Positions 10,060 through 43,039 of a stretch of 51,660 bases of DNA are shown piece by piece. The DNA is from a virus. The translations under genes and the position numbers were made by a program. The notes under the pieces were generated by a model, which saw nothing but the letters and a program-made list of their open reading frames with translations, ran no database searches and was not told the origin of the DNA. The stretch lies in the IMG/VR virus record IMGVR_UViG_3300010354_000126, positions 1-51,660 of that record. The stretch is one strand, 5' to 3'. Position 1 is the first letter of the stretch. The number at the start of each line of letters is the position of its first letter.

Positions 10060-10464
10060 TTAAACAACGTAAGGTTTAGCTTTGAGGAATTGCGGATACT
10101 TTTTGTTAAATTCACGCATGATAACACCCGCCATGGCATTAGCTTCGTTCTCTATAGGACTACCTGTGTCTCCACTGTGTGCGTCTAATTTGTTTTCAGT
10201 ATCCTGTTTGAAATGAACTAGCTCATGGGCCAGTGTTCGCAGTATGTCATTAGGGTGTCTATTGGTTACAATAAGTTCTATCTGTTTAAGATCATTTATG
10301 TATCGGCCAGAAGTAGGCTGCTGGTCTTCTATACTATGGGTTTTTAATTTAATATCGGGAAACTCAGACAGAGATAGTTTTTCAAATACAAAGGGAATAA
10401 ATTTCTCTATGATTTCTCCAAACGAATCTGCCTGATTTTCTCGTAGTATGTCACGAATCTTCAT
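10060..10464 (-). CDS. Putative zinc metallopeptidase (HExxH)
   Basis: A 134-residue protein with HELVH (H80, E81, H84) inside TLAHELVHFKQD, the zincin motif; a likely third ligand is in PIENEANAMAG (E105 or E107). The arrangement resembles small phage SprT- or M48-like metallopeptidase domains. It may process a virion or host protein; the substrate is unknown. The N terminus MKIRDILREN resembles the start tag of other small proteins here. The late-type box lies only 5 bases before the ATG, with no ribosome binding site. It follows the polyprotein gene by 12 bases. Confidence 0.8.
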   Translation of the reverse strand: MKIRDILRENQADSFGEIIEKFIPFVFEKLSLSEFPDIKLKTHSIEDQQPTSGRYINDLKQIELIVTNRHPNDILRTLAHELVHFKQDTENKLDAHSGDTGSPIENEANAMAGVIMREFNKKYPQFLKAKPYVV

Positions 10465-10469
10465 GACAG

Positions 10470-10477
10470 TATTTAGT
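10470..10477 (-). promoter_or_regulatory. Late-type box ACTAAATA abutting the start codon
   Basis: The box is followed after only CTGTC by the ATG at 10464, and it follows directly on the TAA stop of the polyprotein gene. If used as in T4, transcription would begin at or near the start codon. Confidence 0.4.
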
Positions 10478-13400
10478 TAGGATTTCCTTGTAAAATGAAA
10501 GTCAGCATCGATGAGATTATTAATTCTGGGTAAAACAGAACTTACTACGCTAAACCCTATAGAATCCATGAAGGCAAAAACGTCGGAGCTTAAGGGAGCC
10601 CCTATATTGTATTCCTTGAACTGTATTGATAAAAATACATCTCTACAATTTTCTAATACATCTTTTGCACCTTCAAGAATGTCTATTTCACTGCCCTGCA
10701 CATCCATAACGATCATATCTGGCCTAGGAAATGATCTTCGATCTACCACTTCTTTTAGAGTTGTTGTTTCCATATTCCTAGCATGATCTTCTGAAAATAA
10801 AAATTCAGCATTAGGATTAATTGCAGGATTTTCTCTGTAGTAACTGTTACCTGATGATGCAAAACCGTTCTTATAAAATTTCACAGTTTTTTGACTATCA
10901 CTTAAGACATCTATATGGTAATCTATATTTTGTTCTTGATATAAAAAATCGTGTTCTTGACTGGCATCAAATGCAATGATCTTGCTGTCAGGCCATATGC
11001 TTCTTAAAATTTTTGTCCAATGTAGATTACCAGCACCTATATCGTAGATAACTTTGGGATTGATATTGTCATTTTTTTTGAAATCTAATAGATACGAATT
11101 ATATTCGGCCGGTAGTCCGTCTTGTTCATGTCGTTCTCTTATATGTTTTTTAAGTTCTGTTTCAGGAGGTTTTTTTTCGAAGTGTTGATCTTCTACCCTA
11201 TATGTATAAGAGCCAATATGGTCACAAAGTATAGAAGTGTCAGCCCAAATCCTATGACCTCGTTTTTGTGCTTCTTGGCAAAACCATGTATCTTCACTAA
11301 CAGTGCTTCCATGATCCAAGGAGCTCTTATACTCAAACCAAGGATATTGAGTAGATGTAAACACTTCACGTTTTATCAGTACACAACCGAATCCACAGGT
11401 GTCTACTTCTACAAGTCCGCGTCCTTTGAGGTCTTCGTAGGGCACATGAAACACTCCACCATATTGATTTTTGCGCATGACTTCCACAGTGTGCGTTCCT
11501 GGTATACGCTGTATGTATAGAGCGCTGACCATGTCCTTGTCATGTGCTAGCAGCCTTTGCAGGGTATCAGAAGGAAATGCAATATCACTGTCTACACTGA
11601 ATAGGTAGTCCCAACCACCAGAGACAACCCAATGACCTATAAGATTGCGGACTTGTTCAACTTGATATCCGTAGAAATATTGAAATGTGGTTTCATAACC
11701 ATCTGGTATGACTAGATCATAGATTGCCTTAAATGTTTCAACTTCTATGCCAACTCTATTAGGTATGGCTATTAGAATACGTTTTTTGGTTTTTTGCACT
11801 TGTACTATTTCTGTCATTTTTACTTCTGCCTTTTTAGGTATATGTACTATATTATCTTGAGTTTGATTGAGAATCTGATCAGCAGTGATATTTTGTTCTA
11901 CACCGTTTACCTTGTAATCATTTAATGGATTTCTGTCGTTGTATGAACAGGTTAAATCTGAATTTACTGCTACTCTGCTTGGATCACAATTTTCAAGAGG
12001 TAGATAAAAAGTAGAATTATCTCCGCCTGCTTTGAACCAATTTCCTGCATGATCTTTGAATTTAGATTCAGGAATGTCTTTGATTAACTTGGCCTTCATG
12101 GTTCTAAGATGCGTATAGGGCATGCGCCAATTAAACATGTATTGTCTATAGGATTTGGAATTTTTTACATCTGGTGGATAAGGTTGACTGATCAAAGGAA
12201 TACTATCCACTTCACTCCAACAACTACCGTAGATAAAATCGCTGTGTTTATGTAGTTCATTGTAGTAGGTAAAAATATCATATTGCGCCATCAGGCAATC
12301 ATCACCGTCCAATAAAACCACAATGTCATTGTCCTTGAGATTCAAGGATTTAATTGTGGTAATTTGATTGGCAACTGCACTGCCATTCCTAGTCGTATTT
12401 TTTATGAGATGAAATTTAGATTTTATATCTTCAGGAAGTTGATCTATATAGTTTTTAGCAGCATCATATGATCCGTCATCAGATGCATCATCTATAAGAT
12501 AGTGCGCATAATTATCATAATCCTGTGCTGCCACGCTGGCTATACATCTACCTATATAGTCTTTGCAGTTCCAAAATGGAGATATGATCACAAACTTACT
12601 CTCATCAGAAATACGGGGAGCTCTAGTTAATTCTAATCCCTGTGTTCTTCTATCGAAAATCTTGTTATAGATGCTGGTAAAATAACTGTTAAGTTGGTAC
12701 TCGTATCTAGTTAAATGAAGCCCTAGATTATGATATATCCTATGCTTCCATTGCAGTGCTGTGACATCCCACCCTGCTAGGTGTTTAATATGTTCAAGAG
12801 CATCTTGTCTACGTCTAAGTTCTTTTGGATTACTAGCTGCTTCTACTACAAGATCTACAAATTTATTGATCTGCTGTTCAAAGTTAATATTAGGAAATAG
12901 ATAATTTGGTGAAATCGCATAATCTATCATCCAACTTTGATTAGTAGCAGTTTCTTCTAGAGCGCCAAATCTGCAGGTGATTAGAGGAGTATTAGCATAG
13001 AGACTTTCTAGTGTGCTGATACCATATGTCTCGGGCATTTGCGCAGGATATATGAAAAAACTGGATTCAGCGCAGACATCGGCTACAGCCTTTTGTGTAA
13101 TTACTCCTAGAAATTCAATTGAAGGGTCGTCGCGGCTGGTACCTACAATAGCGTTGAAACGTCCTTCTTGATCATGAACTTCTCCAAACGCACTGCCAAG
13201 TTTATAAAACCCGCCAATGACCTTGAGTTTAGCTTCCGGTAGTCTAGCTTTTACTCTGGGCCATACATGATGTAGTAGGGGTTCTAACCCCTTGCTCATA
13301 TTGGCATTAAAAACAAATTGATGGGGATTCTTTTTGTCTAGATCTACTTTGTCAAAATATTTTGTTATACCATTTCTAGTGATCCACATATGTGGTCTAA

Positions 13401-15264
13401 GCACTTCGTAATTTCTAAGATTACCATGATCACAGTTCATCACATACTGTGTATGAAAATCGCTGAGACACCAAATCTCATGAATTGATCCGTTTACTAC
13501 AAGATGTTCTAGATGTTCATCTCCCCAGCTGAATGTGTCATGCATCCAAAATACTTTTAGTTTGGCCTGATCACGTATTCGTTTGAATGTCTTGTAGTTA
13601 AAATCTCTCACTGTGGACATGGCTATGTTATAGTCCTTTTCAGTGATAAAAGGCATGATAGTGCGTGAACCTATCATTACGTCTACCTGATAGTCATCCT
13701 GTGACAGTTCAGCTATAGGTCTATAACTAACACCGTCATAGACTCCCGGACGAGCGTCATCTTCATTACAGGCATTGAAAACAGTGACCTTGAAACCTAT
13801 TTTGACAAGTTCTTTGGCCACAAGTATTATAGCGCTTTCACTGCCGCCTAGACCTCTATGATTTAGTGTGTCACCATCATAGGCCATGCCCTGTATGTCA
13901 ATGAATGCTATGTGTAGATTGAAGTTCGAAAGGCTAGGTTTGGTAGTTATATTGTGTACAATTATCTCATCAGGATTGATTGTGCGACGGCCGAATACCT
14001 TATGCACTCTATAGTTAATCCAACTCACTTTGGCCAATTCGTTTTCAGTTAGTTGATGTCCTAGTTTAAAATAGAAATGCTGTTTCCATTGCAGCGCCAC
14101 AGTGTCCCAGGTACTGACATCTTTGGCAGCATTACAGGCATATTTTTTCTGTTGATGTAGATAAGGATTATGATAGACTTCTAGAACCTTATTGGTGAAA
14201 ATTTTACACTGCTTAATGGTATCAATCTTATTAAACAGAGTATTAGGTTCTACTGCATAGTCAATCATGTAACTGGCCATTTCTGTGGCAGTTTCTTCCA
14301 TGGCACCGAACCTGGTGCCAATAACTGGTGTATTGTAGTTGATAGATTCTAGCGTACTAATACCGCTGGTTTCAGGAAAAGCACCTGGATATATGGTAAA
14401 ATTAGCCTTGGCCAATATTTCTGCTATCTGCGGTTGTGGAATAATACCAGTAAACTCTACAGAAGGATCATCCTTGTATTGTTCTTGAAATCTCAGCAGT
14501 GTCTTTCCCTGTTCATTGATAGGTTCGTTAGGGAACTGATAGTATCCACCTATGATTTTCAAACGAGCTTGTGGTAGTTCTTGCTTGATCCTTGGCCAAA
14601 TACGTTCTAGTAGAGGAACCATGCCTTTGGTCACACTGGCATTATAGACAAAAAGATTAGGATCTTTTTCTTTGACATCAACCCAATCAATCCATCTATT
14701 AATGGCATTTCTAGTTAAAAATGTTTTATTTTTAAGAACTTCGAAGTTACGTCTCGGACCGTGTGAACTATTGAGCGTGTAAGAAAGATGCCAGTCACTG
14801 AGCACGAACAATTCGTCTATGTACTTTTCTACGACCAATTGTTCTAGTATATGATCTCCCCAACAAAAGGAATCTTGTAGCCACAAAATTTTAAGCACAT
14901 GAGGTTTTTGAATTTGTGCAAATGTGTGGACATCGTGGTCTCTAGGGGGAGGTTGTTTAACTTGATCGTATAAGTGAGGAGGCGTAAAAGGCACTACTGT
15001 TCTTTGACTAATGGCAATGTCAAAATTGTAATCTTTCTCTAGTAAACGTGAAATAAGACAGTATTCTACTCCATCATAGATACCTTCACTGGCTCCTTCT
15101 TTGTTGTTATCACCGAAAACAGTGACATCAAAGCCAATTTTAGCCAGCTCTCGTGCTATACTTATAATACTGCTTTCACTACCGCCTATGCCTTTTTTAG
15201 TAAGAGTCGTACCATCATATGGTAACCCTATCACATCAACAATTGCAATTTTGAGTTTTTTCAT
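10477..15264 (-). CDS. Five-domain glycosyltransferase / FkbM methyltransferase polyprotein
   Basis: A 1595-residue cytoplasmic-type protein with no signal peptide. Domains in order: GT4-like GT-B at about 1-440 (KKGIGGSES; PETSGISTLE near 297-306), a second diverged GT4-like copy at about 450-880 (RGLGGSES; PETYGISTLE), a GT2-like GT-A domain at about 888-1130 with the LLDGDD metal motif near 984-989, another GT-A domain at about 1160-1360 with VDSD near 1224-1227 and CGFGC, and an FkbM-type methyltransferase at about 1400-1595 (IYDIGAG; MDVQGSEIDILEGA). It could build and methylate a glycan on virion proteins or the host envelope; acceptor and sugars are unknown. Start ATG 15264 has AAGGA upstream. 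Such fusions normally occur as separate genes. It faces the fibre genes, which makes fibre glycosylation an attractive but unproven role. Confidence 0.9.
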   Translation of the reverse strand: MKKLKIAIVDVIGLPYDGTTLTKKGIGGSESSIISIARELAKIGFDVTVFGDNNKEGASEGIYDGVEYCLISRLLEKDYNFDIAISQRTVVPFTPPHLYDQVKQPPPRDHDVHTFAQIQKPHVLKILWLQDSFCWGDHILEQLVVEKYIDELFVLSDWHLSYTLNSSHGPRRNFEVLKNKTFLTRNAINRWIDWVDVKEKDPNLFVYNASVTKGMVPLLERIWPRIKQELPQARLKIIGGYYQFPNEPINEQGKTLLRFQEQYKDDPSVEFTGIIPQPQIAEILAKANFTIYPGAFPETSGISTLESINYNTPVIGTRFGAMEETATEMASYMIDYAVEPNTLFNKIDTIKQCKIFTNKVLEVYHNPYLHQQKKYACNAAKDVSTWDTVALQWKQHFYFKLGHQLTENELAKVSWINYRVHKVFGRRTINPDEIIVHNITTKPSLSNFNLHIAFIDIQGMAYDGDTLNHRGLGGSESAIILVAKELVKIGFKVTVFNACNEDDARPGVYDGVSYRPIAELSQDDYQVDVMIGSRTIMPFITEKDYNIAMSTVRDFNYKTFKRIRDQAKLKVFWMHDTFSWGDEHLEHLVVNGSIHEIWCLSDFHTQYVMNCDHGNLRNYEVLRPHMWITRNGITKYFDKVDLDKKNPHQFVFNANMSKGLEPLLHHVWPRVKARLPEAKLKVIGGFYKLGSAFGEVHDQEGRFNAIVGTSRDDPSIEFLGVITQKAVADVCAESSFFIYPAQMPETYGISTLESLYANTPLITCRFGALEETATNQSWMIDYAISPNYLFPNINFEQQINKFVDLVVEAASNPKELRRRQDALEHIKHLAGWDVTALQWKHRIYHNLGLHLTRYEYQLNSYFTSIYNKIFDRRTQGLELTRAPRISDESKFVIISPFWNCKDYIGRCIASVAAQDYDNYAHYLIDDASDDGSYDAAKNYIDQLPEDIKSKFHLIKNTTRNGSAVANQITTIKSLNLKDNDIVVLLDGDDCLMAQYDIFTYYNELHKHSDFIYGSCWSEVDSIPLISQPYPPDVKNSKSYRQYMFNWRMPYTHLRTMKAKLIKDIPESKFKDHAGNWFKAGGDNSTFYLPLENCDPSRVAVNSDLTCSYNDRNPLNDYKVNGVEQNITADQILNQTQDNIVHIPKKAEVKMTEIVQVQKTKKRILIAIPNRVGIEVETFKAIYDLVIPDGYETTFQYFYGYQVEQVRNLIGHWVVSGGWDYLFSVDSDIAFPSDTLQRLLAHDKDMVSALYIQRIPGTHTVEVMRKNQYGGVFHVPYEDLKGRGLVEVDTCGFGCVLIKREVFTSTQYPWFEYKSSLDHGSTVSEDTWFCQEAQKRGHRIWADTSILCDHIGSYTYRVEDQHFEKKPPETELKKHIRERHEQDGLPAEYNSYLLDFKKNDNINPKVIYDIGAGNLHWTKILRSIWPDSKIIAFDASQEHDFLYQEQNIDYHIDVLSDSQKTVKFYKNGFASSGNSYYRENPAINPNAEFLFSEDHARNMETTTLKEVVDRRSFPRPDMIVMDVQGSEIDILEGAKDVLENCRDVFLSIQFKEYNIGAPLSSDVFAFMDSIGFSVVSSVLPRINNLIDADFHFTRKS

Positions 15265-15278: not shown

Positions 15279-15300
15279 TCTACGCATATTATAACGTAGA
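15279..15300 (-). promoter_or_regulatory. Sigma70-like -10 with dyad symmetry before the polyprotein
   Basis: TATAAT occupies 15288-15293 on the minus strand, with a poor TTGTAT -35 at 17 bases upstream. TCTACG and CGTAGA arms (15279-15284 and 15295-15300) flank it with a 10-base spacer. The leader to ATG 15264 would be about 17 bases with an AAGGA site. Unlike the fibre genes, no TAAATA box is seen here. Confidence 0.4.
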
Positions 15301-15319: not shown

Positions 15320-15505
15320 TCAAGCGTAGAAAAATATGAACCAGGCCATGATCCAAAATAGGCCGAGAGCTAGGTATGGATTAACAAGTAAGGCCAAAGC
15401 TATAAAAAACACCAGCCATGTAAAATGATATAAATGAAAAAACCAAGGTATGTTAATTACACCAAGAAGTTTTTGCTTCACCGAAATATTCACGGGCATA
15501 TCCAT
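15320..15505 (-). CDS. Small hydrophobic membrane protein
   Basis: A 61-residue protein whose second half (FTWLVFFIALALL, then LALGLFWIMAWFIFF) contains one long or two short membrane segments; the middle FFHLYHF is also hydrophobic. It overlaps the end of the nuclease gene by 53 bases in another frame. No ribosome binding site is seen before ATG 15505, and a shorter form from a later start is possible. Hydrophobicity across the whole frame argues for a real gene, perhaps a membrane or lysis-associated protein. Confidence 0.5.
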   Translation of the reverse strand: MDMPVNISVKQKLLGVINIPWFFHLYHFTWLVFFIALALLVNPYLALGLFWIMAWFIFFYA

Positions 15506-15887
15506 TTTTAATTAATTCAGCACGAAGGCTGACTCCATTTAAGATCAGGTCACCTAGAACACGGCCACCAAACTTATCCCATCCATAGAGAACGACCTGA
15601 TGACGTTGTGTTGATGCCACAGCGTTCTTGGTAAAGGCTGTGGCTGCTTCACCTCTCTGTGCTTCACTGGGGCATTGAGCACGATGTCCTTTTTCTGGTG
15701 TGTCGACCCCAAAGACTCGGACAGCCAATTCAGGTTTTAATGGTGCTGGTAGAAAGGGTGCGGCAATGACCACAGTATCTCCATCATTGACTCTGACGAT
15801 CTTTGCATCATAGGTCACACCTTGTGGTGTTTTTTGTGCCCAGACTATAGCCGGTGCTAATATTAATGCTAATAATAATTTTTTCAT
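15453..15887 (-). CDS. Exported staphylococcal-nuclease family endonuclease
   Basis: A 144-residue thermonuclease homologue, a calcium-dependent DNA/RNA endonuclease fold. Residues 1-17 (MKKLLLALILAPAIVWA) form a signal peptide, so it should be exported to the periplasm or beyond. Catalytic residues align with S. aureus nuclease: R57, D62 and E65 in RVFGVDTPE and R109 in DKFGGRVLG, plus Asp residues in NDGDTVV. Start ATG 15887 overlaps the previous stop by one base (TAATG); an upstream in-frame start is inside that gene. Possible roles are degrading extracellular or incoming DNA, nucleotide scavenging, or host killing aid; the sequence does not decide. Confidence 0.88.
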   Translation of the reverse strand: MKKLLLALILAPAIVWAQKTPQGVTYDAKIVRVNDGDTVVIAAPFLPAPLKPELAVRVFGVDTPEKGHRAQCPSEAQRGEAATAFTKNAVASTQRHQVVLYGWDKFGGRVLGDLILNGVSLRAELIKNGYAREYFGEAKTSWCN

Positions 15888-17212
15888 TATGTAATTTCTT
15901 CCCAATTAATATGTGCCCATCCTTTTAGACCATTGCCGCCGTGCTTCATTGCTAATACGAACTCGTACCGAGTCGCAGGAGAAGTCATGGTATTTCTAGT
16001 CAATTGATAAAGGAATGGAAAATCTTTGACCTGAGGCGCTGAAGAAGCTTGATTTGAACTTACGATCAGTCCTGTTAAAACTGTGGTTCCTGAGTTTACA
16101 AAGCTAGATGCAGTGAGATTATATTCTACAGAACTATCATCCCCAGCACTTATCCATGTACCACCTGTGGTGATAGCCTTAACAAGAACTTCATATCTAA
16201 ATACATTGGCATCATTTACACTGTAGCTAAAATCTTTCGGAAGAACAATTGCTCCTTCACGTCCAGATTTTAACCTTATAGTGACTAATGGATATAGAAC
16301 ACGAGTGTTATTGCCCGTCATTATATAACCATCAATCTCTGTGCCTACGCTTCTAGGACGACCATTTAGTTCATACCCACCTTCTGATATTACAGTTGAA
16401 CATATTGTGCGCAAAAGACTTGTTGATGTAGTTGTGGCTGTATTTTCAATTTCTGCCCTTATAGGCAGACAGGCCGTGGTCATATAGGTAGTGGTATTAC
16501 CTATAACATTACTGTGATAAAACCTATGACAAGGTATAAATTGGCTGTTGATAACAAAGCCAAGTTCCACACTGCCAACTCCTAGCCACTCTATGTTAAT
16601 ATATAAGATCTGTGCTAAACTTAAATCCAATATAATTTTATCTGCGCCTGTTCCATCTAACTTGGTAATATTCCAACTGGACCTAGACGCTCTTTCCTCT
16701 CTTAGTGATCCCTGTGAACTTGATCTTACCACAAATGAAATATCATCATCTTTTTGTTCAAGGTATACACCGTTTGCAACGTCAAAATATCCTATACGTT
16801 GTCTTAGTCCCGGTTTGGCAGGTCCCATACAAAATGTTCTAAGTATCAACAAACTCTTACCTGGCTGGTAGGCAAATACACGATCACTTTCTCTGTATAC
16901 TGCACTACCTGACCCTGTGCCTATGCTTGATACAATGGTCCCTCCACTGCTGTCAAAGGTTGATGTACTTGCTGTGCCTGTGGTATAGATATTGATCTTA
17001 TTATTATCTTGATACCTATTGAAACTGTCATATAGTGTGAATGGTTGACTTATTCTAAAACGTCCGAATGCATCGCTGGCTGTGGGACCTAGGGTGGTCC
17101 TGAGAATTGGTTGACCAAGCACATTATACTGCATGGCCTTATGAAGGTTAAGAAGATTACCTTCTTGAGGATGTTGGTAATTAGTGGAATTTAGATAACG
17201 ATCTACACTCAC
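15887..17212 (-). CDS. Virion structural protein (GRFRIS/FTLYDS type)
   Basis: A 441-residue protein starting at GTG 17212. Residues 47-66 contain DAFGRFRISQPFTLYDS, matching the DAFGRLRVSxPFTLFDS hallmark of a virion protein repeatedly found in aquatic phages. The rest is beta-rich with LREERASRSSW and a C-terminal WAHINWEEI. It has a two-base gap after the preceding stop and overlaps the nuclease start by one base, so it is part of a coupled late cluster. The exact place in the virion is not known to me. Confidence 0.8.
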   Translation of the reverse strand: MSVDRYLNSTNYQHPQEGNLLNLHKAMQYNVLGQPILRTTLGPTASDAFGRFRISQPFTLYDSFNRYQDNNKINIYTTGTASTSTFDSSGGTIVSSIGTGSGSAVYRESDRVFAYQPGKSLLILRTFCMGPAKPGLRQRIGYFDVANGVYLEQKDDDISFVVRSSSQGSLREERASRSSWNITKLDGTGADKIILDLSLAQILYINIEWLGVGSVELGFVINSQFIPCHRFYHSNVIGNTTTYMTTACLPIRAEIENTATTTSTSLLRTICSTVISEGGYELNGRPRSVGTEIDGYIMTGNNTRVLYPLVTIRLKSGREGAIVLPKDFSYSVNDANVFRYEVLVKAITTGGTWISAGDDSSVEYNLTASSFVNSGTTVLTGLIVSSNQASSAPQVKDFPFLYQLTRNTMTSPATRYEFVLAMKHGGNGLKGWAHINWEEIT

Positions 17213-17781: not shown

Positions 17782-20700
17782 CTATTGATACTGATCAGTA
17801 TATAAGAGCACATCAGAACTAGTAAACATATGGCTCACATAGTTTTGTGAATTTTGAACATATTGATTTATAACACCGCCTATGAATTTAGGTACAGCTC
17901 CAGTATAGCGCAAGACAAAATAGCCACTACCGCCATTTCCGCTTGGAGGTGAGGAAGGCCATCCTCCTCCAGCGCCTCCACCACCTGTGCCTGCCTGTCC
18001 ATTCTGCGTAGCGAATGGTGATACTGCGTAACCACCACCACCTGCTGTCTGTGCTGGATTAGCCGCTGTGCTAAAGGGATAACCTGAGCCACCACCTCCA
18101 AATGTTCTTGAAGTAGTGTCCTGCCATGTGTTGACACGACCTATTCCGCCATCACCAGCTTTTGTCGGCGATCCTGGTGCGGAAATTCCCGCACCTCCCG
18201 CACCTCCCGCACCTCCGCCACCGCCGGGGCTAAGAGAACTACTACCAGGATTAGCTGTGCCTTGACCACCGGCATTCCCATAGGCAGTCATGGAAAGCAG
18301 ACTGGTTTGAACTGATGCGCCGCCTGGCTGGACATTTGGTCTCTGGGAACCTCCACCTGAGCCCGAACCACCGCTTCTTCCTGAATTCGTAACAGGACTA
18401 TTTGACCAACTTACTCCACCACCGCCTCCTATGGCTGTATATCCAAGGAATTCAGTGTTACCTCCTTCCCCTCCTGCTGCACCGGGCTGCCCAGTGGCGG
18501 GGAGCTGATTCATCAGGCCACCGCGTCCACCTGCTCCTATGATGATAGGAATTGCTCTAGGAACCACAGGAACATCCATAGTACCTTCCAAAACTCCACC
18601 ACCGCCTCCGCCGCTCCCAATTTGGACTCCGCCTCCGCCTCCGCCTCCGCCTACCATGAAAACTTCTACACTGATAGTGGCTGTTATATAGATTGGCAGT
18701 ATATAGGCCTGTTGTGCTGTGCCTCTATCTGTGGTTACGTTTACACTAAAACTATAATTGGTATTTGAAGCCACTACATCAACTACACCAGATATAACAG
18801 CAGTGGCCGTATTAAATGAAAGTCCTGTAGGCAATGAGCCCACAAGAGCGTAGCTTGTGGCCGTAAATTGTGCTAGGTTGATAGAGGCAGTTTCTCCTAC
18901 TATGTATCCTGATAGAGTAATAGGATTAGCTAGTGTGCTAATATATTCGCTGGCATTTAGAACTCTTATGACCGATGATCCTGTTGCAACAACCACCGCG
19001 GGTATGCTAATTGGCCCAGACCTACTTGTAGATGTGGTATAGGTAGAAGAATTATCGCCTATGACTCCAAATCTTATAGAAGAACCTATGGCTTTTAGTA
19101 TAACATCTCTCTGTTCAAAACTACTGTAATCATCAAAAATGCTGTAGTCTCGTCCTGTGCGTTTACTGTTTCTAAATGTCAGCAGCACACATTGATCTGT
19201 TACAGCTTTTACGTATTCAACATTGCTGACTACTGTGGCTGTTTGAACAGCTTCTACAGGTTGACTTGGAGGATAGGGGTATGTTGGTAAATTATAAAGA
19301 GCCACGCCCTTACAGATTCTTAGACCATGCAGATATATCCTTTGAAAATAGGCTGCTCCCTGCAGGTTGTAATTGACTAAAAATGGATAGGTATGCTCGT
19401 GTATATCCACTACAAAATCTCTAGAGGCTATCAAACTGCCGTTTCTGTACCATTGCAGCACATGATCTTTTCTTTGAACCACATAGTGTTCCCAAGCGTT
19501 GGTAGTTGGTGCAACACCTGAGTCAAGGTCATAATAAGTAGAACGTCCAACTCTAAACAGCAGTCCAGTAGTTCCTTTCTGTATACTCCAACCCCAAGAA
19601 GTGTCGTCTAAGCCTCTTTGACTGAATAACCCTGCATTTGCGCTTTGGGATGCCCAGGCCACTTCAGATCTCAACCAAAATTCTATGGTAAAATCAAGAG
19701 TTCTAAAATTAAAATCATTGTGATTTCTACTTTCAAATATACGTGTGCCTGCACTCAGAGGTATGTAAATGCTGGCCACATTTGTTGTAGTGAGACCAAA
19801 AGGATTACTTGGATTTGATTCAAATACCAAGGCGGAATTGGTTCTATATTCTCTAAATAATTTTTTATCATCTACGGCCAAACTAATACTGAAAGAGCTA
19901 GTGGTACCTGTATATTCTAGATTAGGAATACTGGGCACTAGACTTACTTCACCTACTCTCTCAGTATAGGGATTATAGAGATGAACCTCGGCATAGCCAT
20001 TGCCTATATAGTCACTGTCACCAGTTTGTGTTCTAGCTGCGAATCCCTTGGTGGTAATCCAAACTCTACCAGTTGAATCCAACGCATAGCTTCTAGCGTC
20101 TATGCTGGTCACGTTGGTCGCTGTCCATCCTTGTAAAGCATTAAATCTAAATGTGCTTACTCTACCCAATTGTGTGATCAATAGGGTGTCACCTGCAGAA
20201 TTCAATGGACAAAATCCTGTAGGTACATCATCACACCAATTAAACACGTATTCACTGTGCCATGTTAATTGGTTATCATTATTGCCTGCTCCTATACTGT
20301 AGGTAGGCACTGTTCTACTGGCAGCTACATACCATCTAGAACTCAGACCATATTCACTGGTTGAATTTCCCATAAATCCTGTGTCTATGGCCTTGTCTAC
20401 AATCATAACAGAAATATAATCTATGCCGTTGTGATTAAAAACATGTCCTTTCCTAAAGAAGGGCATTTGGTTATTAAAGGTAGCCACGCTGGCTGGATGC
20501 GGTGGATGCTGATGTGATTTAGCAGTGACCAATATAGTAGTAGCTGTATTCACAAAGGTCCTAGCTGTAATACTTTGATCTACTGCCGTTGAACTGGTAC
20601 AGGCCAGCAGTGTGGTAAATGTGCCTGTTGAAATAGCCTGTACATTGGTGCTGGCTGTTTGTGTAGTAGTTAAGGGAGTAGCAGGAACTGTAAAATTACC

Positions 20701-22245
20701 TATATATACCGCGGTACCTAAAACCACTCTAAGGTTACTGATTCTACCTTTGAACCATGAAGAACCGTTTGACCTTGCCCCTATAAAAATACTGTTGCCT
20801 GTGGTTTTAGCCTGTGGGTGAAAAGCTCCGCCCAGACTTCTTCCATTTACAAAAAAAGTAAGATTTTGATTCCTGCGTGCCACAGCCACATGATACCAGG
20901 GTCCAGGCACAATGCCGTGATTGAGTTGACTGGTAAAACCATATGATTCGTAATTAAGAATAAGTTTATTTCTTGATACTTGGAAACTCACACCGTTGTC
21001 CACATTACCGTCGTTGGAACCTATTATTGTATACCAATTGGTTTCATTGGTTGAATCATTTTCAGCTATGCCTGCTGTGGTACTATAGGGAATTGGAAAG
21101 TCTATTTGTATAAATGCTTCTATGGTAAAATCTGTCTGAGTACCGTAATTAATCACTGTTGTGGTATTGACACCTAGAACACTGCCAGTCACACTTGATG
21201 TACCTGCACTGAATAAGTAATTGTTTTTGTAGGGATAGGCAGTCTCGTTGACAGTACAGGTATTCCAGTACATAGTAGCATTCTTTCTATCTACAACTAC
21301 TCTACTGAAATGAGTAGCAGTGGTGGTATCATTTCTCAAAACATAGTGTACCACACGATTAGGATCCGAACTTTTTTTATTGTTACTGGGGAACAACGCA
21401 CCGCCGCCTGCTGAACTTTGAATCGTGGCCATGCTCAATATTAATTCAGGACCTATGGCCTCTGAATTAGGATGATAATAATAACTTAAACTGTTATTAC
21501 TTGGAAAGTGTTCTATAAAAATGTGTCCGCCAGCTTCAGTGTCACAGACATAAAAAGCCAATCCACTGGTAACGGTTCTTCTACGTTGTGGTATATATGT
21601 TGTAGAAATCCCACCGGAATCGAAATTAGATTTTCCAGCATAGGTCGTGCTTAATTCGTGTTCTACGGTAAGATAATCGCCTGCCTCAGTGCGCTGTTTG
21701 GTAATTACTCCAGATATAGCATAGACATTAGATTTATTAAATCCTGTTGGAGTAGGAGAGACAAGATCTTTTGTAGCATATGACTGTATGGTCCTATCTG
21801 AGGCTGTGTTTTGCCAACCTGGAAACAACAAATAACTTCTATCTAGATCTGCATCGTAAAATCCATTAAGTATATTTTTATCATAGTCTAAACTGGTCAA
21901 CCATGAATCTACATAGCCTGGTTGTGCGAATATTCCATAGTCAGTTCCTGCTGTAAGACTGTTGGCGAAACAGCTACCTCTTTTTCCCTGCGTTATAGGA
22001 TAGCCACCCGTGTCGTACAATTGATAGGAGGCGGTATTTTGAATACCCACATCATGAGATCTTAGATTAGCAGTGGCAGTATTGGCAAATACATTACCTT
22101 GAAAACTAAATCGTTCTCTGTATGGTTGTAGGGTATCAAGATCATAGGCCACATTGTTTATAAAAATTCTACGTTTACTAGGATCCGGATCTTCAACCGG
22201 ATATGGAAATTGAAAGGGGTTTTTAATTACTGTGAATAATGACAT
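17782..22245 (-). CDS. Giant tail fibre/adhesin with LamG, Ig-like and Gly-rich domains
   Basis: A 1487-residue member of the four-gene fibre family, starting at ATG 22245 with GGAG upstream; an earlier in-frame ATG lies inside the preceding gene. Residues 15-30 carry the family signature VEDPDPSKRRIFINNVAYDL. LamG (concanavalin-like) domains lie at about 350-520 (FTIEAFIQ, WYHVAVARR) and 845-990 (FTIEFWLR, WEHYVVQRK); the ALDSTGRVWITTK propeller-like motif lies between them. An Ig-like segment follows at about 1095-1160, then a glycine-rich block at about 1195-1450 starting VEVFMVGGGGGGGG, the type found in phage adhesin tips. The order suggests attachment at the N terminus and receptor binding near the C terminus. 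Host ligand unknown, probably a glycan. Confidence 0.88.
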   Translation of the reverse strand: MSLFTVIKNPFQFPYPVEDPDPSKRRIFINNVAYDLDTLQPYRERFSFQGNVFANTATANLRSHDVGIQNTASYQLYDTGGYPITQGKRGSCFANSLTAGTDYGIFAQPGYVDSWLTSLDYDKNILNGFYDADLDRSYLLFPGWQNTASDRTIQSYATKDLVSPTPTGFNKSNVYAISGVITKQRTEAGDYLTVEHELSTTYAGKSNFDSGGISTTYIPQRRRTVTSGLAFYVCDTEAGGHIFIEHFPSNNSLSYYYHPNSEAIGPELILSMATIQSSAGGGALFPSNNKKSSDPNRVVHYVLRNDTTTATHFSRVVVDRKNATMYWNTCTVNETAYPYKNNYLFSAGTSSVTGSVLGVNTTTVINYGTQTDFTIEAFIQIDFPIPYSTTAGIAENDSTNETNWYTIIGSNDGNVDNGVSFQVSRNKLILNYESYGFTSQLNHGIVPGPWYHVAVARRNQNLTFFVNGRSLGGAFHPQAKTTGNSIFIGARSNGSSWFKGRISNLRVVLGTAVYIGNFTVPATPLTTTQTASTNVQAISTGTFTTLLACTSSTAVDQSITARTFVNTATTILVTAKSHQHPPHPASVATFNNQMPFFRKGHVFNHNGIDYISVMIVDKAIDTGFMGNSTSEYGLSSRWYVAASRTVPTYSIGAGNNDNQLTWHSEYVFNWCDDVPTGFCPLNSAGDTLLITQLGRVSTFRFNALQGWTATNVTSIDARSYALDSTGRVWITTKGFAARTQTGDSDYIGNGYAEVHLYNPYTERVGEVSLVPSIPNLEYTGTTSSFSISLAVDDKKLFREYRTNSALVFESNPSNPFGLTTTNVASIYIPLSAGTRIFESRNHNDFNFRTLDFTIEFWLRSEVAWASQSANAGLFSQRGLDDTSWGWSIQKGTTGLLFRVGRSTYYDLDSGVAPTTNAWEHYVVQRKDHVLQWYRNGSLIASRDFVVDIHEHTYPFLVNYNLQGAAYFQRIYLHGLRICKGVALYNLPTYPYPPSQPVEAVQTATVVSNVEYVKAVTDQCVLLTFRNSKRTGRDYSIFDDYSSFEQRDVILKAIGSSIRFGVIGDNSSTYTTSTSRSGPISIPAVVVATGSSVIRVLNASEYISTLANPITLSGYIVGETASINLAQFTATSYALVGSLPTGLSFNTATAVISGVVDVVASNTNYSFSVNVTTDRGTAQQAYILPIYITATISVEVFMVGGGGGGGGVQIGSGGGGGGVLEGTMDVPVVPRAIPIIIGAGGRGGLMNQLPATGQPGAAGGEGGNTEFLGYTAIGGGGGVSWSNSPVTNSGRSGGSGSGGGSQRPNVQPGGASVQTSLLSMTAYGNAGGQGTANPGSSSLSPGGGGGAGGAGGAGISAPGSPTKAGDGGIGRVNTWQDTTSRTFGGGGSGYPFSTAANPAQTAGGGGYAVSPFATQNGQAGTGGGGAGGGWPSSPPSGNGGSGYFVLRYTGAVPKFIGGVINQYVQNSQNYVSHMFTSSDVLLYTDQYQ

Positions 22246-22246
22246 T

Positions 22247-22663
22247 CTAACTCCAATAAGGACCTTGTACCTGTATATACACAGTGTTTTGACCAGCGGA
22301 CCCACCTCCATAGTTTCCGCTGTCAGTTATGTAGATTGTCAAGATCTCGGCATTGGCAATGATGCTTTGAGGCTGGTCATATAGACCTAGATAGCTAAGA
22401 CCCTTGCCAGGTATAGCAGCTACAGGAAAACTTAAAGAACTTAACTCCGATCCTACGGTCAGTGTAAAAGGTTGACAGATATCTGTGTTGATTTGTTCGC
22501 CAATTAGGCTGAAATTGTTTATCGTCAGCGCATTGGCCAAAAAATCTGTGCCTGTACTGGGTAAAATTTGAAATTGTTTTTGATCACTGATAGCAGAATT
22601 GGCAGATATTTGATCCTCTGGCGTAATACCTACTATTTCAAAACTGAATGATAAATCAGGCAT
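22247..22663 (-). CDS. Small beta-rich fibre-cluster protein
   Basis: A 138-residue protein with a beta-rich sequence (SFSFEIVGITPEDQ, FTLTVGSELSSLSFP, NTVYIQVQG) and no recognised family. It sits between two paralogous fibre genes: its ATG directly follows the previous TAG, and it ends one base before the start of the next fibre. This coupling suggests a fibre-associated protein, perhaps a cap or connector, but the role is inferred from position only. Confidence 0.75.
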   Translation of the reverse strand: MPDLSFSFEIVGITPEDQISANSAISDQKQFQILPSTGTDFLANALTINNFSLIGEQINTDICQPFTLTVGSELSSLSFPVAAIPGKGLSYLGLYDQPQSIIANAEILTIYITDSGNYGGGSAGQNTVYIQVQGPYWS

Positions 22664-24625
22664 CTAGGCTAGATTGGCAGTCACAGTGGGTCTGCCTGCT
22701 CCTGTCAATGTTATATTTGTTGCAGTGGTACTGGCGGTATTAGAAACCACAACCTGTGAAGTGGTTCCATCAGGAAATGTGAGCCCTGAGCCCGAAATAC
22801 TTATTCTAACATTTTTAGAAAGACGTTCTCCTGTATAGTCATATACATCTAGGTATAATGTAGACGTGCTAATTGTACCTGTATAAATTAGCGCAGTTTG
22901 TGCAGCAGATATCTTAATTTGTATTGGATTAGTCCATTTATAGATGTGATATTGTCCCCAACCTCGTAGAAAACTGGCATATCGCTGCATCCCCGCATCA
23001 TTTGTTACAAGTCTATGCGAGCCTGACAATGCAGCATTGTACCCAACTGTCCATAATCTGCCGGTACTATCTAAACCATAGGTTTGTGTATATTGGTTTA
23101 TCCTATCATGAGCTACCCAGCCAGTGACCACATTGAAACTCATAGTTTGTTGAGCTCCTTCTGCCAAAGCTACAAAGATTTGATTTCCGTTAGGAGAAAG
23201 AGGCATCCAACTTTCAGGCAGCTGACTCCATTCTCCCCAAAAGTATGTACTGTGAAATACCATTCTATCACCGATTAATTCGAAAGTTATCCATACATTT
23301 TGCCAAGGCCCATGATAGTGTAGGCCTGCACTTTGATACATATTTCTAAATATAAAATCGTTGTTACGGTTAAAAAGATCAAGTCCTTGAAAGGTTAGTG
23401 TTATAAAATTCCGTTGTGAAACGTTGAACACATGAGGCCTATAGAGATGTTGTCTTGTGGTGCCTCTGGTTGGTTCTGCAGTATTCCATTGAGCTGTGGT
23501 GCTCGCGTTGAAATCCATCAGTCTAATAAAATCTGTAGAATCTCCAGGAAATTCAGGATATATCCTATCTCTGGTAATGGTCACATTAATAGGGTCATAG
23601 GTGAACCTATAGAAATATAGTCTCTTATTTGCAGCTATATTTCTAGGGTATGTAGCATCATTTCCGTGACCTGTATGGCTTTCAAATGCTGCTTGCCAAA
23701 ACTGTTTCTTTGTATCAGATACGTGTAGGAAATTGCTGGGCCATTGAATAAATTGACCCACATAATTATTATCTGTTATATGAGAATACACAGTTCTATA
23801 TGTGGTATTAGATCCTTCAAAAAATTCATAGAAAGTCAGTCTATTACGTTGCGGATCTAGATGCGTCCATATCACGCCGCCATCACCTGTTCTGCCCAGA
23901 GTGATTCCATATCCTTCTCCTGGATCTAGTAATTCTGTATAAGAAGCATTGTCTCCTACGCCTACCCCGATTTGTAGTTTACCAAAAGTTCTTTTACGTC
24001 CAAAAAGCCTAGAGGCAAATACAACATTGTCAACTTGCGGGTCTTCATAGTAAAGGTGGAAGGCTCCGTTATAACTTCCTGGACTTGTCGCACTATTGTT
24101 CATATTTGCAGCGGCGGCGCCCGTAAGATCGTAATAGAACCATTTATAGGCTGTGCCCGCGTATGGGGTACCCGCATCAAAACCTGTTAAATCGCTTATA
24201 TAAATTAGACCACTCCTGAGTTTTATGCTAAATTTAGGTAAAAAGTTCCACGGATCTAAAGTGCTTATATAAGGATCTTGATTGCCATGAAGCCAGAATC
24301 CTTCTGCCAAAACAGAGCCTGATGCATTCCATCTTAATAATCCACTCAACCATAATCTTTGGTAGCCCATGTTTGCCGTCTGAGGATAAGCGGTACCGGC
24401 AGTGTTGCTTGTTACACGCTCTGCTGTGGTCTGACCTATAAAATATTCTCCTGCTATAGGTTTAAGAGTGCTGATATCGTGTGCATAGCCATTCATGAAA
24501 ATTCTATTTTTTGTTGTATCAGGATCTTCTATTACCCAATATAAAGCACGACCATCTAATACCTTATAGACCTCGTTAAATTTATATTGGCTGCTTACAG
24601 GACTAGTTGATGAAAACTGGCTCAT
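22664..24625 (-). CDS. Tail fibre paralogue (shortest scaffold form)
   Basis: A 653-residue member of the EDPD fibre family. The signature VIEDPDTTKNRIFMNGYAHD is near residue 30, and the C terminus carries the shared module YGLDSTGRLWTVG, then a beta-sandwich repeat (LYLDVYDYTGERLSKNVRISISG) that recurs in the two following genes. Aromatic strands rich in Trp and Tyr fill the middle. No LamG or collagen-like domain is inserted. An AGGAA site lies before ATG 24625; the next gene's stop is 8 bases upstream. Probably a fibre subunit carrying the basic scaffold. Confidence 0.82.
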   Translation of the reverse strand: MSQFSSTSPVSSQYKFNEVYKVLDGRALYWVIEDPDTTKNRIFMNGYAHDISTLKPIAGEYFIGQTTAERVTSNTAGTAYPQTANMGYQRLWLSGLLRWNASGSVLAEGFWLHGNQDPYISTLDPWNFLPKFSIKLRSGLIYISDLTGFDAGTPYAGTAYKWFYYDLTGAAAANMNNSATSPGSYNGAFHLYYEDPQVDNVVFASRLFGRKRTFGKLQIGVGVGDNASYTELLDPGEGYGITLGRTGDGGVIWTHLDPQRNRLTFYEFFEGSNTTYRTVYSHITDNNYVGQFIQWPSNFLHVSDTKKQFWQAAFESHTGHGNDATYPRNIAANKRLYFYRFTYDPINVTITRDRIYPEFPGDSTDFIRLMDFNASTTAQWNTAEPTRGTTRQHLYRPHVFNVSQRNFITLTFQGLDLFNRNNDFIFRNMYQSAGLHYHGPWQNVWITFELIGDRMVFHSTYFWGEWSQLPESWMPLSPNGNQIFVALAEGAQQTMSFNVVTGWVAHDRINQYTQTYGLDSTGRLWTVGYNAALSGSHRLVTNDAGMQRYASFLRGWGQYHIYKWTNPIQIKISAAQTALIYTGTISTSTLYLDVYDYTGERLSKNVRISISGSGLTFPDGTTSQVVVSNTASTTATNITLTGAGRPTVTANLA

Positions 24626-24633
24626 TATTTTTC

Positions 24634-26940
24634 CTAAATGGCTGTGGTAACAGTGATATTTGTTGCACCAGAACCGATGATATTTACACCCACATTGGTT
24701 TCTCCCACTGTACTGGTTACCACAGTAATAAATTTAAGATTATTAGAAAAATTCATGCTGTTGCCTATGATGGTTAAGGTTATGGTAGATGCCAGTCTTT
24801 GTCCTTGACTGTCATAGGCACTGACTAACAGCGTGGTGGCTATAGTTGAACCTGAGTAAAGATATTTGTTATTGGTTCCGGAAACTGGTGTACTTAAGGA
24901 CAACGTGACCCTTGATGGTACATCGTCTCGTATGAGGTGAATTTCAGATTCTCCAACTGTGGTATTCCTTACGGTTATCCACAGTCTTCCAAGACTGTCT
25001 ACACCATATCCTCTAGCTCTAATTGCAGTGGTCAGACCTGGTTGCCAACCTAATGTTATAGTACCAGTCCCTAAAGTAGGTGTGGTAGGAACAAAGTCTG
25101 CTTGAAATCTCAATGAAGTTAACGTAGGAGCATCGATGACCTTCCAGCATCCATTAATAGGCTGAGATGTAGCGGTTGTTCCTGTAACTGTGATATTAGC
25201 ACCTGCTGATAATCCGTGATCCGCTGCAAAATTCAGTGTTACTATAGGGGAGGTAGGTGATGTATCAACTGCATAACTGGCAAACTGCTGTGTGCTGGTA
25301 TTAAAAGTGTGAATTATTACACCGTTTGACGAAAAGGTAGCTATTTTATTCCCTGCCTGTGTCATAGGGCACCACCCTTGTGGAAAATCAGAAGGATAAT
25401 TTGTGAAGTAGAATCCACTATGAAAAGTCCAAATATTGTCATTGGTATCTTCTGTGGTTCTAAAGGTTATCCATTGACGTCTACGTTGCGTATTGTATCT
25501 AGCCGTAGTTGTAAATTTTTGTTGATTGGTCATGGTGATATAGACAAAACCACCCTGTACCCACTGGTGCGGTTTAGACCAAAATGAATTCATTCCATAG
25601 GCATTATGACCGGTAGAGACCGGTGCTTGAAAGAACCCTGTTGCACTATAAAAAGTTGTAGTTGAATAATTTAGAGGCAAACTAAGCGAACATGTGCTGG
25701 TAGTAAAGGTTCCATTAGCTTGATCCCATACAATTCTAGAAGGTTGGTATGTGTTGTCACTACCCATATGAGAACTAAAAATAACATAACGATTAGCAGT
25801 ATGCCTGCGTAGATTACTAGGCAACCAAGGAGCTGTGTTGGTTAATGGAGAACCTGGCCCTATGTTACCTATCATTGTGGTTTCTACACCTGCACCCTTG
25901 GCATGACTGTATCTAAGTATGTCATAGAGATAATTGGCTGTTGTGCCGTTAGCCTGCATGCGTAGATAGTACACATACTGTGTATCAGTTCCCATAAAAA
26001 AACTATGTCCCACAGTGTTTAGAACCTTAGGTTGAGGCACTGAAATAGCAGGTGTTGTACTAATACCATTCAAATTAAAATAGGCACTCATATGCTGGGG
26101 ATTTGATCCACTTGACACAGAACTAAGGCTATCTCGAGTTCTTACACCCCAACTACGATATTCTGTTGCTGTAAAATTTAGATTCCCTACGGCTGTTCCA
26201 GTAGGCACTGGACCACCTATATAGGTGAAGCTGTTAGCTGAAGGTTGATCCCACACGCTCCATTTTCCGTTTGGTGCTCCGGATCCGGTTACCTGCGCAT
26301 TTGTCACAGTAACAAATGTACCTGAACTTAGACCATGAGCTGTAAGATTTACTGTTACCACTGTGTTTTGATTAGCCCCTGGATTTGTATAAGACCAAGT
26401 ACCAGATTCATTATAATATTCTGTCTGTTCCCAACAATGGATATGATTGTTAAGTGTTGCATCATTTGTATGCCAACCTCCTAGATTACTCCAAGCTAGA
26501 TCTATTCCTATCCACCAGTAGGCCCCTATATTTCCTCCACTGGTATTTCCCATTGTATTGAATAACACACGTTTTGTACCTGGGCTATACCATCCTCTAC
26601 TAGCAGGATAGTTCCATATATCTAATGACATATTCCAAATATCATAGCCCGCAAAATGAAAAAATGCTGTTGCTTCTGCACTAGAATATGCATTTCCAGT
26701 GATACAAGGACCTCTAGTTAGATTTACTGGTAGAGCATTGGTATTATCAGCTGAATTAGCTAGGTTAGCCGCTGCACCAGAATCTCGCTGTGTCCACCAC
26801 CAATTTTCTGTCGGAGTGGGAGACCCTGTGATAAAATTATAAGCGTAGTGATCTAAGAATATACGATTTTTAGATGGATCTGGATCTTCCCATATTCCGT
26901 CTTGCCTTTGTGTTGTTCTAGAAGTCCATATTCTTGCCAT
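24634..26940 (-). CDS. Tail fibre paralogue (scaffold form)
   Basis: A 768-residue fibre-family protein. The signature WEDPDPSKNRIFLDHYAY follows a short N terminus (MARIWTSRTTQRQDGI). Further shared blocks are FFMGTDTQYVYYLRM, LPSNLRRHTANRYVIFSSHM, HQWVQGGFVYITM, ITFRTTEDTNDNIW, GYGVDSLGRLWIT and a C-terminal LVSAYDSQGQRLASTITLTI sandwich. These align block by block with the much larger protein at 26972-33487, so this is the uninterrupted version. A repeated motif, TVVTVNLTAHGLSSGTFVTV and later VTLNFAADHGLSAGANITV, marks two similar beta domains. The start has an AAGGG site and its own late box. Confidence 0.85.
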   Translation of the reverse strand: MARIWTSRTTQRQDGIWEDPDPSKNRIFLDHYAYNFITGSPTPTENWWWTQRDSGAAANLANSADNTNALPVNLTRGPCITGNAYSSAEATAFFHFAGYDIWNMSLDIWNYPASRGWYSPGTKRVLFNTMGNTSGGNIGAYWWIGIDLAWSNLGGWHTNDATLNNHIHCWEQTEYYNESGTWSYTNPGANQNTVVTVNLTAHGLSSGTFVTVTNAQVTGSGAPNGKWSVWDQPSANSFTYIGGPVPTGTAVGNLNFTATEYRSWGVRTRDSLSSVSSGSNPQHMSAYFNLNGISTTPAISVPQPKVLNTVGHSFFMGTDTQYVYYLRMQANGTTANYLYDILRYSHAKGAGVETTMIGNIGPGSPLTNTAPWLPSNLRRHTANRYVIFSSHMGSDNTYQPSRIVWDQANGTFTTSTCSLSLPLNYSTTTFYSATGFFQAPVSTGHNAYGMNSFWSKPHQWVQGGFVYITMTNQQKFTTTARYNTQRRRQWITFRTTEDTNDNIWTFHSGFYFTNYPSDFPQGWCPMTQAGNKIATFSSNGVIIHTFNTSTQQFASYAVDTSPTSPIVTLNFAADHGLSAGANITVTGTTATSQPINGCWKVIDAPTLTSLRFQADFVPTTPTLGTGTITLGWQPGLTTAIRARGYGVDSLGRLWITVRNTTVGESEIHLIRDDVPSRVTLSLSTPVSGTNNKYLYSGSTIATTLLVSAYDSQGQRLASTITLTIIGNSMNFSNNLKFITVVTSTVGETNVGVNIIGSGATNITVTTAI

Positions 26941-26960
26941 TAATCATACCCTTGTTTGAA

Positions 26961-26968
26961 TATTTATT
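26961..26968 (-). promoter_or_regulatory. Late promoter-like box AATAAATA
   Basis: Seven of eight bases match the T4 late consensus, 20 bases before the fibre start at 26940, in the 31-base gap between two fibre genes. Confidence 0.62.
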
Positions 26969-26971
26969 CGA

Positions 26972-33487: not shown

Positions 33488-33713
33488 CGGGTACCTCGGG
33501 TGGAGGTGGAGGAGGTTCTATATGGCTCGCATAGCTTTCTTTTCTAGTTTCCCACCATGCCAATGCAGATTCCTCACTGGGCCATGCCATCATTGAACCA
33601 TCTGGTATAAATGGTTGGTTGATTATAAGATACCTAGTAGCTGTATCATTTTCTTCTTCTACGTAAATCTTAAGTGTGCCTGCAGAAAATTCTGTCTTAA
33701 ACTGTTTTGCCAT
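33480..33713 (-). CDS. Small fibre-cluster protein with proline tail
   Basis: A 77-residue protein: a beta-rich N terminus (FKTEFSAGTLKIYVEEEND, then RYLIINQPFIPDGS), a Trp-rich middle (MAWPSEESALAWWETR) and a tail of six prolines. Its ATG directly follows the stop of the collagen-like fibre gene, and it overlaps the giant fibre start by 8 bases, so it is coupled to both. A chaperone or connector for fibre assembly is plausible, but it has no recognised family. Confidence 0.72.
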   Translation of the reverse strand: MAKQFKTEFSAGTLKIYVEEENDTATRYLIINQPFIPDGSMMAWPSEESALAWWETRKESYASHIEPPPPPPEVPDA

Positions 33714-35720: not shown

Positions 35721-35727
35721 AGTCTAA

Positions 35728-35735
35728 TATTTAGC
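35728..35735 (-). promoter_or_regulatory. Late-type box GCTAAATA near the start codon
   Basis: Seven bases before the ATG at 35720, in the sequence GCTAAATATTAGACTATG. No ribosome binding site follows it. Confidence 0.5.
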
Positions 35736-35741
35736 GAGTGA

Positions 35742-36173
35742 TTAACTGGGTGGTACAGGCCAGGAAACTGCAAAGGGAAAACCTTGTTGGCTGGGTATGT
35801 CTCTAAGGGCCTGTCTATATTCTGCCCAGGCCACCTTATCCACTGGACTGTCTGTTAGCTGTGTCCAATCTGATTCTGTTATTTTTTTGTCTCTTTCTTG
35901 TCTAATATTGAGAGCAGCCGTATCGGCAGTCAAGTCAATAACTAGAAAATTTTGTTGATATTTGCCATCAACCAATATAGGCATTTCTTCTCTCACAGTC
36001 TGTGTATGAAGATCGTAATTTGGATATACTGTGCCCTCTACATAATAAAGACCAAGACTGGCCAATAGCTCTTCTGTGGCAGTTCCTGCTAGACTGATAT
36101 TAGGATGTTCCTGTCTGAATTGGTCTAGAGTATAGGGATACCTTTGGTTTTGTCCTTGTATAAAAATGTACAT
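35742..36173 (-). CDS. Phage tail assembly chaperone
   Basis: A 143-residue protein whose C-terminal part (ITESDWTQLTDSPVDK, AWAEYRQALRDIPSQ, PFAVSWPVPP) matches the tail assembly chaperone family Phage_tail_APC, with the conserved sequence ESDWTQLxDxP...YRQALRDxP...WPxPP. The N-terminal 90 residues look like a small fibre-cap domain (YTLDQFRQEHPNISL). It probably helps fibres fold or attach. AGGAA precedes ATG 36173. It sits between fibre genes, and is the only chaperone recognised here. Confidence 0.85.
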   Translation of the reverse strand: MYIFIQGQNQRYPYTLDQFRQEHPNISLAGTATEELLASLGLYYVEGTVYPNYDLHTQTVREEMPILVDGKYQQNFLVIDLTADTAALNIRQERDKKITESDWTQLTDSPVDKVAWAEYRQALRDIPSQQGFPFAVSWPVPPS

Positions 36174-36181
36174 GTCTATTC

Positions 36182-40017: not shown

Positions 40018-40345
40018 TGCTGGTTTCTAATAAACTCAATATAAGATCTACACTGCTATTTGTACTAACTTCTGCTTCAAAACTATTGCCTTCTTCAATA
40101 ACTAATTTTCCTGTGGTAATTTCTACTGCATCTTGTGGCGGTATTCTAAAATCTTTTAATAAAGTATAGTTAATACTGTTTTTGACCAATCTTGCACTGA
40201 TAGTAACTGTTTGCGTGCTGAAATTACTGGCCTGTGCTCCTAATATGATACAGGTTAGGTCCGTAGGTGTAGTGTAGATAGTCTGGGTAGCGGTTGTTAG
40301 CTCAAATGCTCGAGTTCTAAACGTATTTAATGGTAGCGTTGCCAT
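40010..40345 (-). CDS. Small conserved structural protein
   Basis: A 111-residue beta-rich protein (TQTIYTTPTDLTCIILGAQ, VTISARLVKNSINYTL, AVEITTGKLVIEEGN), similar in style to small virion proteins of aquatic T4-like phages that carry a single beta-sandwich. A GGAAAA site lies about 10 bases before ATG 40345. It lies between two fibre genes and overlaps the collagen-like gene start by eight bases, so it is probably a fibre accessory. No exact family is recognised. Confidence 0.72.
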   Translation of the reverse strand: MATLPLNTFRTRAFELTTATQTIYTTPTDLTCIILGAQASNFSTQTVTISARLVKNSINYTLLKDFRIPPQDAVEITTGKLVIEEGNSFEAEVSTNSSVDLILSLLETSNE

Positions 40346-40349
40346 TTAA

Positions 40350-43038: not shown

Positions 43039-43039
43039 A

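Follow-up and report, generated by a model that had tools for sequence, protein, structure and literature searches.

The locus

The window, by which we mean the whole stretch of DNA analysed, comprises the 51,660 bases of IMG/VR virus record IMGVR_UViG_3300010354_000126, a metagenomic fragment classed as linear. The virus is a phage of aquatic bacteria that encodes four glycosyltransferases and a methyltransferase in one giant fused gene. The gene begins with an ATG at 15264, stops at 10477-10479 and encodes 1595 amino acids in a continuous frame; the initial annotation had placed it correctly at 10477-15264 and left its strand, which is minus, unstated. The features of the locus are as follows.

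10477..15264, minus: whole gene, GT4a-GT4b-GT2-GTA-FkbM, 1595 aa (Pfam, PHROG, NCBIfam)
13990..15264, minus: predicted GT4a, residues 1-425, EX7E at 298 (Pfam Glyco_trans_1_4; motif)
12610..13989, minus: predicted GT4b, residues 426-885, EX7E at 745 (Pfam; motif; 44% identity to GT4a)
11815..12609, minus: GT2 (GT-A fold), residues 886-1150, LLDGDD at 984 (Glycos_transf_2, 1e-17; fold)
11191..11814, minus: second GT-A, residues 1151-1358, VDSD at 1224, SED at 1323 (PHROGs; STIV A197 by profile and fold)
10480..11190, minus: linker and FkbM-family methyltransferase, residues 1359-1595 (Methyltransf_21, TIGR01444, fold)
15288..15293, minus: -10-like TATAAT box before the ATG, conserved among two-GT4 members (upstream motif comparison)
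10060..10464, minus: small metallopeptidase-like protein, downstream neighbour, conserved in relatives (Peptidase_M78, 8e-5; 19 loci)
15453..15905, minus: SNase-type nuclease with a signal-peptide-like N-terminus, upstream neighbour (SNase, 1e-10)
15887..17212, minus: virion structural protein, two genes upstream (phrog_1645, 7e-101)
17782..51659, minus: fibre/adhesin-like genes, candidate acceptors (open reading frames)
33714-35720, 37945-40017, 43386-50696 and 50724-51659, minus: collagen-like Gly-X-Y stretches in fibre genes (repeat scan)

The product had been called a polyprotein. Because nothing points to cleavage, that label is wrong, and we describe the protein as a multidomain enzyme. 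No membrane helix was detected in its 1595 residues (maximum 19-residue Kyte-Doolittle mean, 1.62).

Domains, motifs and fold

The domain reading given initially (two GT4, two GT-A and one FkbM domain) is correct: Pfam and NCBIfam identify the GT4, GT2 and FkbM parts, and PHROG matches together with fold identify the second GT-A. The Pfam family Glyco_trans_1_4 matches two stretches of the protein (7e-21), and on this profile and the EX7E motif the N-terminal half is predicted to be GT4; GT4a and GT4b share 44% identity across 423 residues. The Pfam match of the GT2 domain to Glycos_transf_2 (1e-17) lies above the curated cut-off. The methyltransferase domain matches Methyltransf_21 in Pfam (1e-9) and FkbM TIGR01444 in NCBIfam (8e-13; 49 bits against a cut-off of 37.7). 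The second GT-A received no family assignment in the Pfam scan; it matches phrog_1574 (3e-25) and two PHROGs named glycosyltransferase, and its C-terminal end coincides with the stop position of relatives that lack a methyltransferase.

The catalytic motifs are intact. All those named earlier are present (GGSES at residues 27 and 473, LLDGDD at 984, VDSD at 1224, DVQGSEIDILEGA at 1521), and a motif scan of the protein added EX7E at 298 and 745, GGDN at 1080, SED at 1323 and the SAM-binding DIGAGN at 1408. Across the family, EX7E is retained in 64 of 64 GT4a and 25 of 27 GT4b domains, the LDGDD of GT2 in 63 of 67, and the FkbM motifs in 22 of 22.

Structure prediction, the check that had been proposed for these assignments, was applied to residues 870-1595 with an alignment of 47 relatives. 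The resulting model (mean pLDDT 87) spans the GT2, second GT-A and FkbM domains and supports the GT-A folds and the FkbM fold. The second GT-A resembles STIV A197 by fold (TMt 0.68) as well as by profile, and the methyltransferase part resembles a Moumouvirus FkbM protein (TMt 0.92). The solved structures that best match the model are tandem GT-A enzymes, namely heparosan and chondroitin synthases and LH3/ColGalT1. The synthases, the best whole-model matches, likewise carry two GT-A domains per chain but polymerise repeating disaccharides, and whole-chain TM-scores are low (0.2-0.3), so that only the agreement of the domain folds, not their packing, is trustworthy.

Recurrence of the fusion

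A single-protein search returned 14 viral contigs; scanning with a profile recovered 250 relatives from viral contigs, and 80 of these were retained. The search for the same fusion in related phages, suggested as a check, succeeded: the same five-domain order occurs in six further viral contigs at 56-58% identity (L042, L043=L044, L045=L046, L047=L059, L050 and L058). No match covering at least 80% of the query protein was found among 50,697 annotated phage records. Two uncharacterised UniProt entries from uncultured Caudovirales phages, A0A6J5T3W3 and A0A6J5M7M7, belong to the same family, with 37-39% identity over the GT2/GT-A/methyltransferase part; both carry automatic names, one is 1119 aa (the size of a one-GT4 member), and no study of either was found in the open literature searched. 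A bacterial origin was considered and rejected: the sole match in bacterial and archaeal genomes, L123, lies on a 12-kb MAG contig, where the gene is split in two frames, the second comprising GT-A and a Methyltransf_24-type domain.

After removal of duplicate loci, the order GT4-GT4-GT2-GTA-MT is represented by the window and six other loci, GT4-GT4-GT2-GTA by a dozen loci with complete ends, GT4-GT2-GTA-MT by 13 and GT4-GT2-GTA by about 20. In L011 the methyltransferase stands between GT2 and GT-A, and L052 and L061 have an additional GT2-like domain, a fifth glycosyltransferase identified by weak Pfam matches (9e-5 to 1.5e-4). The enzyme is thus modular: it has either a single GT4 domain or a pair, and its methyltransferase may be C-terminal, internal, encoded by a separate neighbouring gene, or absent.

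The dN/dS ratio was 0.05-0.30 in every domain of the related pairs that could be measured, indicating purifying selection on all domains. Because six contigs share the domain order and each domain shows such ratios, chance and sequencing error are excluded. The proposal that an assembly or sequencing error had fused separate genes in the window draws on nothing except the contig being a metagenomic fragment; the frame is continuous, the identical fusion stands in six more contigs and other fused domain orders recur too. We consider an artefact extremely improbable and, given the recurrence, reject it for this gene. The identity of the enzyme and the conservation of the fusion are near certain.

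Gain, loss and relocation of domains

A tree of the GT2 and GT-A domains groups every two-GT4 member in a single supported clade (100/99). On a GT4 tree, GT4a and GT4b each form a fully supported monophyletic group, and the single GT4 domains lie between them; a duplication may have produced the pair, or a related GT4 may have been captured. The methyltransferase is scattered on the GT2+GT-A tree, where supported branches require at least five changes to account for the five-domain form, a count slightly inflated by truncated loci (L049, for example, ends before any methyltransferase would appear).

The loci L050 and L056 illustrate such a change. Their DNA is 85% identical and collinear on both sides, the methyltransferase is present in L050 only, and the difference is cut exactly at the end of GT-A. 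Members without a fused methyltransferase mostly stop at the same ...TFRVE position. A separate FkbM gene is adjacent in L093, L096, L101, L102 and L105 and a TylF-like gene in L051, and in seven members without the fused domain a methyltransferase-like gene of about 222 aa begins at the stop codon or a few bases away from it. Inspection of the neighbouring genes of several other such members revealed no methyltransferase next door, which counts against the role proposed below. In the contigs of the first 14 relatives no FkbM was found elsewhere, except in L011, and a methyltransferase-only scan of viral contigs returned nothing, probably owing to overly specific peptide patterns.

The family of about 222 aa comprises L004 10597-11262 and homologues in L002, L005, L006, L008, L010, L080, L043, L045 and L051, mostly without a Pfam or PHROG match. 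Its fold model is poor (pLDDT 38 from nine sequences), and the methyltransferase label therefore comes from motifs and from a weak match to Methyltransf_23 (best 0.0013; three of nine members). In L043 and L045 the gene is convergent, on the opposite strand, alongside the fused methyltransferase.

These comparisons qualify the initial description of a chain ending in a methyl cap: FkbM is C-terminal in the window, but the last place is not fixed in the family, being internal in L011 and separate or absent in many relatives. A modular enzyme whose parts are gained, exchanged or lost recurs across many uncultured T4-like phages.

Genomic surroundings

The fibre-gene neighbourhood described earlier is real, since 17.8-51.6 kb consists mostly of fibre/adhesin-like ORFs. 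At 1962-3620 the window also encodes a pectate-lyase-like protein of tail-spike type (PF12708, 1e-8) whose position is conserved in relatives. Contigs of some relatives reach 353 kb, and a T4-type major capsid gene scored above the family cut-off in six of the 14 contigs tested. Across relatives the gene has as neighbours fibre genes, a small metallopeptidase and a nuclease whose N-terminus resembles a signal peptide; a head-tail adaptor (connector) family gene lies directly downstream in nine loci, and tail-fibre-assembly genes are also adjacent. Collagen-like neighbours occur at 30 of 70 loci, and Thr ranks first or nearly first among the residues at position Y of their Gly-X-Y repeats. In most, not all, of eight larger contigs, several of them related, a collagen-like gene lies close by; the nearest one is 11 genes away in the window and 55 in G020. 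Its proximity is modest evidence for a fibre acceptor.

Further genes were noted in several relatives. A 2OG-Fe(II) oxygenase domain lies a few genes from the glycosyltransferase gene and the fibres in three contigs (G001 36727-36975, G007 66795-67046, G012 3806-4057) and could hydroxylate collagen-like fibres ahead of glycosylation; the window has none. A nucleotide-sugar dehydratase family is present in eight of 14 contigs. In G007, a nucleotide-sugar cluster at 4348-12250 (epimerases/dehydratases, a TPP enzyme and a cupin, identified by eye; PF16363) and an HldE-like kinase at 30073-30825 (by eye) possibly supply donors. Series of radical-SAM-like genes (CxxxCxxC) with small ORFs between them, also recognised by eye, occupy G007 (L018-L025) 109007-124688 and G001 90064-93961, which is unusual for a phage. 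CsgG-like and curlin-like curli genes (by eye) are found at G007 (L019-L020) 21038-23303; pelagimyophages and the methylophage Melnitz have curli pore genes without the fibre genes csgA/csgB (PMC9004378). In L034 (G009) a 5-aminolevulinate-synthase-like gene (2110-3306, minus; by eye) adjoins the glycosyltransferase gene.

Promoters and the acceptor

The two-GT4 clade has a conserved TATWAT box before the gene, and several members add a -35 box, TTGACT, 17 bases further upstream. Upstream of the window gene there is no good -35 box, a stricter promoter scan lists no promoter, and no T4-late box was found. Late boxes of the TATAAATA type are common in the one-GT4 clades, where at some loci the box faces a divergent collagen-like gene. 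The sigma-70-like promoter predicted for the window's clade suggests early expression. This hint counts against a virion acceptor and is the main argument for a role in which the host envelope (LPS, capsule or surface glycoprotein) is remodelled early, the altered receptor excluding competing phages. Domains of the GT4, GT2 and FkbM types are characteristic of polysaccharide pathways, and the glycosyltransferases in the host-recognition cluster of pelagimyophages have been proposed to modify the host O-chain (PMC7029224). However, the protein has no membrane segment, no GtrA flippase was found in 19 contigs (those of 326-353 kb included), late boxes are frequent in the one-GT4 clades and connector genes lie immediately downstream in nine loci. 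We regard an envelope acceptor as possible but rather unlikely. GtrABC-type O-antigen conversion in particular was rejected on the same absence of GtrA and of a membrane segment.

T4-like phages use glycosyltransferases to glycosylate hypermodified DNA, and G018 contains a second thymidylate-synthase-family match, so DNA was considered as an acceptor. The jumbo two-GT4 contigs G015, G016, G017 and G019 each encode a single thymidylate-synthase-family protein and therefore show no sign of dCMP hydroxymethylase; the window itself is a fragment. Four sugars plus an O-methyl on a DNA base would, to our knowledge, be unprecedented, and we judge this acceptor highly improbable. Some acceptor other than virion, host envelope or DNA takes up the remaining probability.

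A virion acceptor is favoured by the fibre- and neck-gene surroundings, the Gly-X-Thr collagen-like neighbours and the absence of GtrA. Unrelated host-interaction genes tend to accumulate around fibre genes, and for that reason proximity to them is weak evidence. We give virion fibres about an even chance of being the acceptor.

Comparison with known systems and proposed role

Chlorovirus PBCV-1 A064R makes the methylated end of the capsid glycan (PMC9614988). Like the phage protein it is a virus-encoded chain with several glycosyltransferase domains and a C-terminal methyltransferase (we claim no homology), and A064R and A111/114R have multiple glycosyltransferase domains per chain and build the glycan of the major capsid protein independently of host organelles. 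A064R differs in having 638 aa, two glycosyltransferases and no GT4 pair, and in belonging to a eukaryotic virus. WsaE, from the S-layer glycan system of Geobacillus stearothermophilus, is soluble and trifunctional: two glycosyltransferase domains are joined to a methyltransferase that forms a 2-O-methyl cap (PMC2943079). It too joins these activities on one soluble chain, but its methyltransferase is N-terminal, its glycan is lipid-linked and exported by an ABC transporter, and it has three activities rather than five. PMC11256854 cites work on mycobacteriophage Che8 and relatives that ties phage glycosyltransferases to glycosylation of the phage's own capsid protein; we liken that system to the present family from the description cited there.

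The initial reading of a glycan assembly line with a methyl cap is the best supported, A064R and WsaE being characterised glycosyltransferase-methyltransferase fusions that act likewise, and by analogy with them the product is likely a short, often methylated glycan. We propose that a soluble enzyme acts in the phage-infected cytoplasm, where two retaining GT4 domains, the GT2 and the second GT-A would add sugars in succession to form a short oligosaccharide, and the fused FkbM would O-methylate one of them, probably as a cap. Tethering the domains would keep the steps together in fixed stoichiometry. The likely acceptor would be a protein of the virion surface. The most plausible candidates are fibre proteins encoded nearby, whether the Thr-rich collagen-like ones (Gly-X-Thr) or others, and a fibre so glycosylated would differ in binding, stability or protection. 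In this scheme we infer the donor sugars, the order of reaction, the methylated sugar, the acceptor and the effect. As a whole, a soluble multidomain enzyme that makes a methylated oligosaccharide for the virion surface is the best explanation, with the chances for and against it evenly balanced. A bolder version, which we put forward tentatively and think more apt to fail than to hold in full, is that these are phage-specific modular glycan assembly lines in which the set of domains present dictates the glycan that Thr-rich collagen-like virion fibres carry and provides swappable surface sugars, the second GT4, the extra GT2 and methyltransferases of FkbM or TylF type being gained, lost and moved within one chain.

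Fusion of glycosyltransferases with a methyltransferase is already known from chloroviruses and an S-layer system, and the five-domain form is unusual in phages; no paper on such a phage fusion was found in the open literature searched, a body that mostly leaves out subscription journals. The fusions of several glycosyltransferases and a methyltransferase with a proven role come from chloroviruses and one S-layer system. A phage family this widespread, whose domain content is easy to compare, would open phage glycosylation, of virion or host, to direct testing, and it supplies a natural collection of one-chain oligosaccharide synthases.
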